10,302 nt of DNA, taken from NCBI GenBank assembly GCA_023251275.1, contig JAHEZC010000041.1, positions 1-10,302 on the forward strand. Reading direction: 5' to 3'. Of the stretch, positions 4,049-8,271 are shown piece by piece (positions within the stretch are counted from its first letter, which is position 1; each line of letters starts with the position of its first letter). The notes beneath the pieces are model-generated. The model ran no database searches, was not told the DNA's origin, and saw nothing but the letters and a program-made list of their open reading frames with translations. The position numbers and the translations under genes are program-made. The DNA comes from Parafilimonas sp. Lineage in GTDB: Bacteria; Bacteroidota; Bacteroidia; Chitinophagales; Chitinophagaceae.

Positions 4049-6166
4049 TTAAACGGCTTTAGCTACTGCTACGAATGAGGTACGGTATTGCCTGGCCCTG
4101 TTTACAAAATCTATTGCCTGCTGCTGATAGTTTAAAGCAAATTCTTCAGATGGTTCCACCTTATTGATCTGCAATACGAGACTTGGGAAATCTTCATAGT
4201 CAGCAAAATCACCGTCCTGCACAAAGTGCTTATCGAAATCTCGTATGATACCATGCTGTGTATTGCACTGCACACCTTTTTGTAATAACAATGCTTTGGC
4301 AGTATGAACAAAGGCAGCATAAGCATGATAAATGCCATCGGCCCATTGGTTTTTTTCAAAACATTCCTGCGACCATTCGAGTTTTTCATCAGCTTCGAGT
4401 ATCAGTGTTGCCACAAGGTCAATCATCACACCGGCGCATTCGCCAACACCAATGGCTGTTGCAAATTTTTCTTCCTGCCCCCAGTCAATAAAATCTTCAT
4501 CCCTGAGCAGATCAACGTTTGTTAATGGTTTCAGTAATTCATAAAAATATCTTTCTCCTTTGCGCTCTGCATACTGATAGAATACTTCATCCTCGATTGC
4601 ATTGTTTTTAAAATCTGTGAGGAGCAAACGAATGGCATCAGGCCCTTTTTTGCTTGGAATTTTTATTACTTTTTCCGCAATACGGCCGTTGCCGCTGCCC
4701 AACACGCCTCCGCCAATCAGCACCTGCAAGGCAGGCAGCACTTTGCCTTTTGCTTTCAGTGAACTTCCGTGAAAACCAATGGATGCCATGCCATGCTGCC
4801 CGCATGAATTCATGCAACCACTTATTTTGATGGACACATCTTTGTTGAATAAAAATTCGGGGAATTCCTCTTCAATCACTTCTGACAACACATTACTGAT
4901 TCCTGTGCTGTTCGAGATTCCCAAATTACAGGTATCGGTTCCCGGGCATGCAGTGATATCGGCAGTGCTTCCAAAGCCAGGCCCGGCAAGCCCTTCTGAA
5001 TCAAGTACGCGATACACATACTTTATATGTTCCGGTTTTACATATCGGAATTGTAATCCCTGGTTCACTGTTATCCTCACATCATCAGCAATAGCAGGTG
5101 CAAGCTTTTCAATCAGCCGCCTGCTGACGTCAGAACTTATATTACCCAATGGCACTCTTACATAAACAGCAAAATATCCTTCCTGTTTTTGTTGAAAGAC
5201 ATTGGTCTTCCTCCAATATTCAAATTTCAATTCATTTTTTACAGGTTCATTTATTTCAGGCAATTCACCGACCGGTAAAGCCGGTTGTATAAACCGCGAG
5301 GTATCAACTTTATAAGACTGGCAGGTCAATGCTTTTTGTTCTGCATTTACTAATTCATTAAAACTGTCAATCCCTATTTTTTGTATCAGGTATTTTATTC
5401 TCGCCTTATGACGGCTGGTACGTTCTCCATGCCTGTCAAACACCCGAAGCACTGCTTCTGTATATGGCATCAAAAGATCTTCTTCTAAAAATTCGTATAT
5501 AGTATGAGCGAGGAATGGTTGTGCGCCAAGACCGCCACCTACCAATATTTTAAATCCTCTTTTTTCGATGCCATCAATTATACGAATACGTGGAATGGCG
5601 CCGAGGTCATGCATAAATGTATAGGCAGTATCCGCTTCGCTGCTGGAGAATGCGATCTTGAATTTCCGGCCAAGTTCCTGGCAGACGGGCTTACGTAAAA
5701 AATATTCAAATGCAGCATGTGCATAAGGTGTTACGTCAAAGGGTTCATCAGGATCAATTCCCGCCTGGTCTGATGCCGTAATATTCCTTACGGTATTGCC
5801 GCATGCTTCACGGAGGGTGATATTATCCTGCTCCAGCAACGACCATAATTCCGGGGTGCGCTCAAGGCTTACAAAATGGATCTGTATATCCTGTCTTGTA
5901 GTAAGATGCAGGTTGCCTGTGGCAAACTCATCAGATACATCGGCTATGCGTTTCCATTGAGCGAGGGTCATTTTACCTTGTGGTAATTTGATTCTTACCA
6001 TTTGCACACCCTGTTGCCTTTGGCCATATACGCCCCGTGCAAGACGCAGGCTGCGGAATTTTTCATCCGGGATATTTCCTGCCCTGAATTCGCGGATCTT
6101 TTTTTCCAGTTCAATGATGTCCCTTTCAACCAAAGGGTTTTCCAGTTCTGTACGAAAACTCTGCAT
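4049..6166 (-). CDS. Siroheme/4Fe-4S sulfite (or nitrite) reductase with C-terminal HEPN-like domain
   Basis: A 705-residue cytosolic enzyme predicted to reduce sulfite to sulfide by six electrons for cysteine synthesis. Two ferredoxin-like/siroheme half-domains are visible: GNLHLTTRQDIQIHF (84-98), ACGNTVRNIT (121-130) and GGGLGAQP (210-217) in the first. The second holds the cluster ligands, C407-x5-C413 (ACPGTDTCNLG) and C451-x3-C455 (SGCMNSCGQHG), the spacing of the family. TACPGTDTC looks more like sulfite than ferredoxin-nitrite reductases, but nitrite cannot be excluded. No flavin domain is present, so ferredoxin or a separate partner should supply electrons. Residues from about 565 to 705 exceed a standard reductase. 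AYAAFVHTAKALLLQKGVQ with QHGIIRDF resembles HEPN helical-bundle domains. The gene stands alone between a terminator and an attenuator-like leader with a Cys-rich peptide, which supports a role in sulfur assimilation. Confidence 0.93.
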   Translation of the reverse strand: MQSFRTELENPLVERDIIELEKKIREFRAGNIPDEKFRSLRLARGVYGQRQQGVQMVRIKLPQGKMTLAQWKRIADVSDEFATGNLHLTTRQDIQIHFVSLERTPELWSLLEQDNITLREACGNTVRNITASDQAGIDPDEPFDVTPYAHAAFEYFLRKPVCQELGRKFKIAFSSSEADTAYTFMHDLGAIPRIRIIDGIEKRGFKILVGGGLGAQPFLAHTIYEFLEEDLLMPYTEAVLRVFDRHGERTSRHKARIKYLIQKIGIDSFNELVNAEQKALTCQSYKVDTSRFIQPALPVGELPEINEPVKNELKFEYWRKTNVFQQKQEGYFAVYVRVPLGNISSDVSRRLIEKLAPAIADDVRITVNQGLQFRYVKPEHIKYVYRVLDSEGLAGPGFGSTADITACPGTDTCNLGISNSTGISNVLSEVIEEEFPEFLFNKDVSIKISGCMNSCGQHGMASIGFHGSSLKAKGKVLPALQVLIGGGVLGSGNGRIAEKVIKIPSKKGPDAIRLLLTDFKNNAIEDEVFYQYAERKGERYFYELLKPLTNVDLLRDEDFIDWGQEEKFATAIGVGECAGVMIDLVATLILEADEKLEWSQECFEKNQWADGIYHAYAAFVHTAKALLLQKGVQCNTQHGIIRDFDKHFVQDGDFADYEDFPSLVLQINKVEPSEEFALNYQQQAIDFVNRARQYRTSFVAVAKAV

Positions 6167-6189: not shown

Positions 6190-6218
6190 AAAAAAAACTT
6201 CCGCATCATGTGCGGAAG
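6190..6218 (-). terminator. Intrinsic terminator inside the reductase leader (attenuator)
   Basis: On the minus strand CTTCCGCA (6218-6211), loop CATGA, TGCGGAAG (6205-6198), then eight T (6197-6190). The stem is a perfect, GC-containing 8 bp. It ends 23 bp before the reductase ATG and lies downstream of the leader promoter. It therefore interrupts the reductase's own transcript rather than simply ending the amidohydrolase gene, whose stop is about 300 bp upstream. Confidence 0.93.
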
Positions 6219-6267
6219 CCTTTAATGTGAAATATTATTTTAAATAGCTTATCCGCACCATTGGGTG
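6210..6267 (-). promoter_or_regulatory. Antiterminator and competing hairpin of the reductase attenuator
   Basis: On the minus strand GTGCGGATAAGC (6258-6247) can pair with GCTTCCGCAC (6219-6210): six plus four base pairs around a two-base AT bulge. The second strand is the 5' arm of the terminator, so the two structures exclude each other. The first strand covers the last codons and UAA stop of the leader peptide. A ribosome at the stop would mask it and allow termination; one stalled at Cys codons 8-10 would leave it free. A small hairpin, CACC-CAAT-GGTG (6267-6256), can also sequester part of the antiterminator when nothing is translated. Confidence 0.75.
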
Positions 6268-6311
6268 ATGTTACATATTTTACAACAGCATACAGTAACG
6301 GAAACTATCAT
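6249..6311 (-). CDS. Cysteine-rich leader peptide of the sulfite reductase attenuator
   Basis: A 20-codon ORF encoding MIVSVTVCCCKICNITQWCG followed by TAA. Five of 20 residues are cysteine (8, 9, 10, 13, 19), with three consecutive codons TGC TGT TGT. Its ATG lies about 20 bases after the predicted transcription start. There is no Shine-Dalgarno, only an A-rich upstream stretch, as for other starts here. The stop codon sits inside the antiterminator strand and the intrinsic terminator follows 30 bases later, with the reductase gene beyond it. This is the layout of the trp, his and leu leader peptides of enteric bacteria, with cysteine as the sensed amino acid. The peptide itself probably has no function beyond being translated. 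The sequence facts are direct; translation and regulation are inference. Confidence 0.75.
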   Translation of the reverse strand: MIVSVTVCCCKICNITQWCG

Positions 6312-6333
6312 TCTACTATTTTGATGGACTGTA

Positions 6334-6364
6334 CAAAAGTAAAGCTGAGAATGCATTGTCCCAA
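6334..6364 (-). promoter_or_regulatory. Bacteroidota-type promoter of the reductase leader transcript
   Basis: On the minus strand TTG (6364-6362), 20 bp, then TACTTTTG (6341-6334) fit the consensus TTG-N(17-23)-TAnnTTTG exactly. The predicted start near 6330 puts the Cys-rich peptide ATG about 20 nt into the RNA and yields a leader of about 160 nt before the reductase ATG. The gap 6365-6513 shows no other ORF. It contains only an AT-rich 6-bp hairpin (6460-6474), which may loosely end the amidohydrolase transcript. Confidence 0.75.
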
Positions 6365-6513
6365 AAATATTTTCAGGATGTGAAAAGAAATTAACTTATT
6401 GGAAGAAACAAACATTTGTTAATCAGTTGCTCGATTTACAGATTTGAATTTTTGAGATTAAATTCAGTGAATTTCACATCTTTATTCTTCTTTAATGGAT
6501 CTGATAAAACAAA

Positions 6514-7830: not shown

Positions 7831-7870
7831 AAGTTCACATGTTCACGAGTTTACGAGTTCAAAAGTTCAT
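7831..7870. repeat. Left AGTTCAC-type repeat array flanking the four-helix-bundle gene
   Basis: Tandem degenerate units of about 8-9 bp on the + strand: AGTTCACAT, GTTCACG, AGTTTACG, AGTTCAAA, AGTTCA. GTTCACATGTT (7833-7843) is the exact reverse complement of 8296-8306 on the other side of the gene. The last unit overlaps the TGA stop of the four-helix-bundle gene (7867-7869). Confidence 0.7.
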
Positions 7871-8271
7871 TTATCTTGTCTTGATTTGTATTTTGGCCCT
7901 TTCATTTCTGATTTATCCAGGTAGTCTATCAGTTTCTGAAGCAGTACAATGATATCCAAAGCCAATTTATAAAGCATATCAAATTCAGTTTGAATTAAAT
8001 ATCCTCTGTCCATAGCACGATATAGCTGAGATCTGAATTCTCCGCAGGAACCTTTTGAAATATACAGAAATTGGAGAAATTCTCTGTTGCCGCCTCTTTC
8101 AAATCCTTCGGCAATATTATCCATGATCGAACCAGCTGAACTTTCTATCTGATCTATCAATTTATAACTTTTCCCGAATTTGCCACTGTCAATCATTTTA
8201 CCAACTATTTTATTCATTTCCCTTGCTTTCTGCCATGAAACAATATCTTCAAATTTTTTTATCGTTGCCAT
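7867..8271 (-). CDS. Four-helix-bundle protein (23S rRNA intervening-sequence protein family)
   Basis: A 134-residue all-helical cytosolic protein of the S23/IVS-encoded four-helix-bundle family. The family pattern is complete: FEDIVSWQKAREMNK (7-21), LIDQIESSAGSIMDNIAEGFERG (39-60 region), EFLQFLYISKGSCGEFRSQLYRA (64-86), a final helix (95-119) and a basic tail. In spirochaetes such ORFs lie in 23S rRNA insertions. In Bacteroidota they are mostly solitary genes in intergenic positions and their function is not established. Here it sits between two amidohydrolase genes and is bracketed by inverted AGTTCAC-type arrays, one overlapping its stop codon, which suggests insertion as a unit. I saw no promoter of its own. 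Confidence 0.92.
   Translation of the reverse strand: MATIKKFEDIVSWQKAREMNKIVGKMIDSGKFGKSYKLIDQIESSAGSIMDNIAEGFERGGNREFLQFLYISKGSCGEFRSQLYRAMDRGYLIQTEFDMLYKLALDIIVLLQKLIDYLDKSEMKGPKYKSRQDK

Follow-up and report, generated by a model that had tools for sequence, protein, structure and literature searches.

A predicted cysteine-responsive attenuator precedes a likely sulfite reductase gene

The minus strand of the 10,302-nucleotide stretch of Parafilimonas sp. DNA analyzed here (hereafter the window) very probably carries a leader-peptide transcription attenuator: slow passage of a ribosome over cysteine codons is predicted to let RNA polymerase proceed into a likely sulfite reductase gene. Within approximately 175 bp, this strand presents, in order, a promoter, a Cys-rich upstream ORF (uORF), an antiterminator and a terminator, with the reductase gene following. 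The region combines a Cys-rich ORF located between promoter and gene, an intervening terminator and an antiterminator that shares an arm with it, in an architecture that is conserved in relatives. If the prediction is true, it would define a cysteine-responsive switch for sulfide supply in Bacteroidota. The positions originally proposed for the promoter, the uORF, the terminator with its T8 tail and the reductase ATG were all found to be correct on re-reading the sequence, and the following features were delimited:

6334..6365, minus strand: promoter, read from the sequence, with TTTG at 6365-6362, a spacer of 20 nt and TACTTTTG at 6341-6334
6313..6327, minus strand: operator-like palindrome CCATCAAAATAGTAG, which covers the expected transcription start, a candidate transcription-factor site
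6249..6311, minus strand: leader ORF (uORF), 20 codons plus TAA, reading MIVSVTVCCCKICNITQWCG, with its ATG at 6311
6292..6309, minus strand: strand 1 (protector), pairing with strand 2 in the full-length fold
6282..6290, minus strand: Cys codons 8-10, the putative regulatory stall site, based on the sequence and on Cys enrichment in relatives
6240..6258, minus strand: strand 2 (5' strand of the antiterminator), spanning Cys19, Gly20 and the stop codon
6210..6225, minus strand: strand 3, serving as 3' strand of the antiterminator and as 5' arm of the terminator
6190..6223, minus strand: intrinsic terminator, a 13-pair fold (6223-6211 with 6205-6193) with its T8 tail at 6197-6190
4049..6166, minus strand: siroheme/4Fe-4S nitrite/sulfite reductase gene, 705 aa, with its ATG at 6166 and its stop at 4049

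The uORF contains five Cys codons, at positions 8, 9, 10, 13 and 19. When charged Cys-tRNA is scarce, a ribosome would wait at codons 8-10 and cover part of strand 1, leaving strand 2 free to pair with strand 3, so that the terminator would be blocked and the reductase transcribed. With ample Cys-tRNA, the ribosome would instead reach the TAA codon inside strand 2 and mask that strand, and the terminator (6218-6190) would halt transcription. If the uORF were not translated at all, strand 2 would be engaged by strand 1, and here too the terminator would form. We infer that the uORF is translated, that ribosomes stall at codons 8-10, that transcription ends at 6190 and that the leader responds to cysteine.

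Competing hairpins within the leader

Because strand 3 is common to both, antiterminator and terminator exclude each other. For a transcript ending at 6210, in which strand 3 is complete and the terminator 3' arm (strand 4) is not, the computed fold is a 16-pair antiterminator joining 6258-6240 with 6225-6210 (-18.9 kcal/mol, z -1.0, not unusual for a fold taken as a whole). For the full leader to 6190, the fold consists of the strand 1:2 pairing plus the terminator (-31.0 kcal/mol, z -2.9). Terminator and tail together (6222-6190) give -15.1 kcal/mol with a z-score of -4.5; the terminator stem is placed at 6218-6198 in the anatomy of the leader, directly ahead of T8, and just 23 nt separate T8 from the reductase ATG. 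The proposal that an antiterminator lies over the uORF stop codon and pairs with the 5' arm of the terminator was hence borne out, the pairing being longer, at 16 pairs, than had been stated. A simple consensus scan with a fixed terminator rule listed the terminator stem only on the opposite strand.

A structured leader equipped with a terminator would also be expected if a metabolite-binding RNA were acting here and the Cys codons were incidental. However, no Rfam family matched the window at the curated gathering score, a scan of 40 related loci returned no matches either, and, by eye, the leaders share Cys codons and a plan, not one fold or one sequence. A riboswitch at this position, which the empty scans led us to reject, is almost certainly not the explanation.

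Cysteine codons are enriched upstream of terminators in related loci

To place the leader among its relatives, 159 regions upstream of the reductase and related genes were collected, and 17 identical duplicates were dropped, yielding 142 distinct regions. One locus (L155) was left out, its gene start not having been found, as were partial matches lacking a gene start (G454, G533, G460:C32 and G592:C337); the distant matches L013-L030 lie outside the analysis, except for two that were refetched as L126 and L127 and are counted among the 142. For matches that began past residue 1, an upstream in-frame ATG was taken as the start (none was found for L119), and distances are approximate for L010-L012, L085, L095, L104, L113, L115, L116 and L118-L124. 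Terminators were called in the last 260 nt before the gene at a fixed strength (score of at least 17) set without regard to Cys. Under the strict Cys rule, a uORF had to contain at least three Cys codons, including a pair, and to lie within 200 nt before the terminator.

A strong terminator was present near the gene in 35 of the 142 regions, and 25 of these 35 carried a uORF satisfying the strict Cys rule, versus 0.64 expected by shuffling (39-fold). This count is the highest among all 20 amino acids, none of the others exceeding 7/35. Met ranks second (7/35 versus 0.08 expected) and its ratio is larger than that of Cys, because Met accompanies Cys in one set of leaders. The same criterion was applied, as a control, to 98 further terminators in these loci: nine presented a Cys uORF, and eight of these nine are leaders located where these reductase operons begin (the operon-start leaders among these positives being those of L048, L049, L050, L053 and L064), so that the frequency at unrelated terminators is 1/90. 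A strict Cys uORF was found in 4 of the 107 terminator-less regions; three of these four (L008, L011 and L056) show weaker hairpin-plus-T stretches. Ten terminator-bearing regions fail the strict Cys rule; five of them (L047, L070, L072, L073 and L165) harbor uORFs with two or three Cys codons, and no Cys uORF was accepted in L069, L075, L082, L163 and L173, where the L163 region reaches just 118 nt upstream. When whole-window dinucleotide shuffles were searched for a uORF with at least five Cys codons, a Cys triplet and a following terminator, none of 300 contained one, and the window itself contains one. These shuffles, together with the Cys enrichment and the terminator control, led to the rejection of a chance ORF. 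A poly-TTG repeat is in general an unlikely source of the Cys runs, as TGT and TGC are mixed in most leaders; in the L012 leader, where nine of ten Cys codons are TGT, a repeat of this type may account for the length.

Pairing between the antiterminator strand and the 5' arm of the terminator was stronger than in shuffles in the window (z -4.5, p 0.003), as it was in L129 (p 0.003), L032 (p 0.007) and L031 (p 0.013). Among the 30 leaders evaluated, 16 reached p values up to 0.05, with a mean z of -2.0, and 14 fell short of that level, the wrong ORF having been chosen by the script in L169. In 26 of the 30, the antiterminator strand starts 12-31 nt past the first Cys run. Folds, related loci and Cys enrichment all support the reading of the window as a cysteine-sensing attenuator, as a prediction made from sequence. 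Apart from these features, L135, L159 and L166 (from genomes G486, G742 and G539) each show one stop codon within the reductase frame.

The closest leaders preserve the plan and little of the peptide

The three leaders closest to that of the window (L001) occupy the same position and read MITAVWGSCCKSRCFIQICG (L031), MFTPSFICCCKSCCWLVTCG (L032) and MKLPAPAYCCTSCCLVTLCG (L129). All four span 20 codons and have Cys at codons 9, 10 and 19; most other residues differ, save for Gly20, and the antiterminator core is alike. The conservation of Cys19 and Gly20 may itself come from RNA pairing, since both fall inside strand 2. In a four-row alignment, 51 of 52 terminator cells hold standard pairs, and of ten core antiterminator pairs (54-102 to 65-93) nine are standard in all rows, the tenth failing in L031. 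Strand 1:2, which forms in the full-length fold of the window, and the outer antiterminator pairs are not kept column by column across the four rows. The computed fold switches in L031 and L032 as it does in the window, and in L129 the antiterminator wins only with strand 1 masked. Covariation is weak among the four leaders because few core pairs vary. A stronger argument is that leaders of other sequence keep the complementarity with different letters (the 16 of 30 at p 0.05).

These comparisons bear on whether the uORF could encode a small functional Cys-rich peptide, for instance a metal-binding one, with the hairpin serving as its own transcription terminator. A short Cys-rich ORF followed by a good terminator is what such a gene would look like, but beyond Cys and Gly20 little sequence is kept in the four closest leaders, and some other leaders, when the nearest ATG is taken, have Cys ORFs no longer than MCSCCKTM or MCCCHNSIR. 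In addition, the antiterminator overlaps the uORF stop codon and the distance from T8 to the reductase ATG is a mere 23 nt. We regard a functional peptide as scarcely credible, and attenuation as the reading that these leaders favor.

The downstream gene is likely an assimilatory sulfite reductase

Both halves of the siroheme reductase family (PF03460 and PF01077) are present in the product of the downstream gene. The closest curated model is PRK09567 (NirA family), which scores 229 bits versus a cut-off of 523. Among solved structures, the closest is chain 1zj8, which carries the annotation ferredoxin-dependent nitrite reductase NirA. With PRK09567 below its cut-off and the nearest structures annotated as nitrite reductases, the sequence alone leaves the choice between sulfite and nitrite unsettled. 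Gene neighborhoods in relatives point to sulfite. In all seven f22 genomes searched (G428, G412, G313, G191, G175, G152 and G134), the reductase is followed on its own strand, at a distance of up to approximately 5 kb, by one or two PF01507 genes whose size matches cysH or cysD, and in L036, a locus without attenuator, a uroporphyrinogen-III methyltransferase gene and CysN lie beside the reductase. In the genome of the window (G000, 83% complete), a search for a PF01507 gene of the cysH/cysD type found none. On the basis of these PF01507, CysN and siroheme-synthesis neighbors, the product is likely an assimilatory sulfite reductase, and the amino acid enriched in the leader (Cys) matches the pathway of such an enzyme. 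At its C-terminus, the reductase is extended by a segment matching the HEPN domain (PF05168, residues 588-653). Elsewhere in the window, at 7867-8271, a 23S rRNA-intervening-sequence/four-helix-bundle protein is encoded between two amidohydrolase genes.

A start-site palindrome hints at an additional control layer

The box TAnnTTTG has been reported for the flavobacterial housekeeping sigma factor (PMC9723704). The window element TACTTTTG fits this box, making its promoter one of the Bacteroidota type, and it recurs in L031 and L032, with TATTTTTG in L129. The promoter at 6365-6334 was not among the calls of a simple consensus scan based on E. coli-type hexamers, which reported a different sigma-70-like site at 6384-6355. 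The palindrome over the expected start site, which the original prediction had not seen, would add a second control layer to its scheme. At least 13 of the 15 positions of its general form CYAYTAAATTARTRG are matched in 36 of the 142 upstream regions versus 21 of 1,420 shuffled regions, a contrast somewhat flattered by a consensus drawn by eye from the same loci. The palindrome often comes shortly after a TTTG box, and it occurs both with and without an attenuator. We take it as a candidate transcription-factor site, which would act as a second layer of control over the reductase gene.

This distribution is also the argument for regarding a transcription factor bound at the palindrome as the main control, with the uORF and terminator as a minor or decaying addition. 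Such control, however, leaves unexplained the Cys enrichment (25/35 versus 0.64), the antiterminator pairing and the retention of Cys at codons 9 and 10 throughout the four nearest leaders, and it can coexist with attenuation. We therefore consider it highly unlikely that the attenuator is a mere accessory to the palindrome.

Predicted attenuators of differing sequence recur in other Bacteroidota families

The plan recurs with a different sequence in leaders preceding the reductase of genus g7 (Chitinophaga-like genomes; MCGCCWGNSTD, MCKCCRDRSAD), of f22 (NCCM type) and of Bacteroidota MAGs (MCMCCM, MMCCMMC), and in leaders of distant reductases at 37-39% identity (L119-L122), whose gene starts are uncertain. 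When the strict rule is applied, nine loci show a pair of attenuators, one after the other, ahead of a single operon (L010, L048, L049, L051, L057, L059, L061, L063 and L064).

The distribution of the device was analyzed on a FastTree phylogeny of 91 reductases, 30 with and 59 without it and two unlabelled (L069 and L075), which left out the 51 of 142 rows having fewer than 550 aa of reductase. The labels, partly set by hand, count as positive several cases missing the strict rule (L008, L011, L047, L056, L070, L072, L073, L151 and L153) and the operon-start leaders (L048, L049, L050, L053 and L064). The device label changes seven times on this tree versus approximately 25 times in shuffles. 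The window and its three closest partners branch beside a clade of 35 reductases, all without the device (support 99), so the device is not universal in the family of the window. The expectation that orthologous leaders would share a Cys-run uORF, a terminator and a competing stem is thus upheld in the three nearest leaders and in other families, and fails in this sister clade. The device is likewise absent from a flavobacteria-like group and from single rows such as L007, L009, L045, L077 and L078; for the flavobacteria-like loci (f24, among L079-L112), searches of 1.5 or 4 kb upstream found no strict-rule Cys uORF with terminator. The simplest reading, for a tree whose deep branches are long and whose labels are partly manual, would be an old device that has disappeared from the sister clade, from the flavobacteria-like group and from a few individual lineages. 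The device would be a leader-peptide attenuator that keeps its plan while its sequence turns over.

Searching 395 genomes for the pattern ATGTGYATGTGYTGYATG returned four matches (L209-L212). L209 was rejected as a Cys leader, not being leader-like in appearance. In L210 and L211, a terminator separates the match from downstream sulfur genes. In L210 (1500-1849), MCMCCM with a terminator is followed by a SAM-I riboswitch (RF00162, 87.9 bits) and then by an O-acetylhomoserine sulfhydrylase gene (TIGR01326). In L211, MCMCCMCCMC with a terminator is followed by a sulfurtransferase-like gene and then by the first part of a sulfite reductase-like one; the leader and terminator of L212 are identical to those of L211.

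Met comes right after the first Cys run in 18 of the 38 leaders having a Cys pair, versus 4.4 expected under random placement of non-Cys residues, many of these leaders being related and hence representing fewer independent cases. L012, L051, L056-L059, L061, L063, L070, L072-L074, L116, L118 and L119 are among them; window-type leaders have Lys or Thr after the Cys run, not Met. The pattern makes dual sensing of sulfur amino acids a testable question.

Leaders of a related kind were found before cysH in two g241 genomes, g241 being the genus of the three nearest leaders. They read MNATNTQCCCCCC (L193), MQHFLHKYRISRQCCC (L182) and MVLYKFSISKRPCCC (L207) and end in CCC or CCCCCC, at the following positions (0-based, gene strand):

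L182, 1290-1341: cysH leader
L193, 1302-1344: cysH leader
L207, 574-622: cysH leader

In all three the Cys run sits at the stop codon, and no intrinsic terminator was found. A check of 18 cysH loci revealed, immediately ahead of the cysH start in L182 and L193, a uORF that closes with a Cys run, and no such leader in most of the others. For L207 and L208 the start assigned by the script was that of the following gene, and the L207 leader was found separately. L181, another cysH locus, has two uORFs with two or three Cys codons that are outside the count.

Taken across loci, these leaders could reflect an old and widespread circuit of the Bacteroidota in which ribosomes read sulfur status, a proposal to which we give even odds. 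Cys leaders of unrelated sequence, many with Met next to the Cys run and perhaps sensing Met too, would attenuate sulfite reductase and occur in tandem in several lineages; in one genome such a leader and a SAM-I riboswitch would act one after the other ahead of O-acetylhomoserine sulfhydrylase, and terminator-less cysH leaders would be the counterpart in the nearest genus. Charged Cys-tRNA (perhaps also Met-tRNA) would thereby act as the gate to sulfate assimilation, one level below a promoter site for a transcription factor.

Comparison with known leader-peptide systems

The leader-peptide attenuators of the trp, his and leu operons are the classical examples among amino acid operons, and are named in PMC1262725 and PMC9723704. 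The window resembles this type in that a short ORF carries consecutive codons for the pathway product, antiterminator and terminator are mutually exclusive, and the stop codon falls inside the antiterminator strand. Unlike that type, it would read cysteine, precedes a likely sulfite reductase in Bacteroidota and has a TAnnTTTG promoter, and some of its relatives carry two attenuators in series.

For cysteine, reportedly, judging by the title of a 2020 study by Canestrari, a mycobacterial Cys leader is cysteine-responsive. Mycobacterial polycysteine leader ORFs lie before cys operons, with the Cys run near the stop and no conserved intrinsic terminator (PMC1262725), and have been described as acting by translation attenuation (PMC13236596). 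As described there, they share with the window a Cys-run leader ORF before a sulfur gene, whereas the window has a terminator and its Cys run lies at codons 8-10 of 20, not near the stop; the cysH leaders L182, L193 and L207 are closer to this layout than the window leader is. The uORFC-8-2 motif (PMC8632094) is located upstream of cysS in Rhodobacterales, with a Cys pair usually at codons 14-15 and a 3' intrinsic terminator, and is predicted only, with read-through presumed when charged Cys-tRNA is short. On that description, tandem Cys codons, an intrinsic terminator and presumed read-through at Cys-tRNA shortage are common to both, and both are predictions; unlike this alphaproteobacterial cysS motif, the window has a reductase gene and Cys codons at 8, 9, 10, 13 and 19.

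Within the phylum, leader-peptide attenuation has been inferred upstream of amino acid operons of Flavobacterium psychrophilum (PMC9723704), in line with the window in both respects. In the main text of that paper, which keeps its leader list in supplementary tables, 'sulfite' is absent and 'cysteine' appears once, in 'cysteine protease'. Our literature search, which had most subscription papers beyond its reach, found no Cys attenuator recognized for Bacteroidota. Cys leaders and leader-peptide attenuation are both known elsewhere, and it is the tandem and riboswitch-coupled variants that go beyond the known kind; such versions would be natural two-step and two-input gates.
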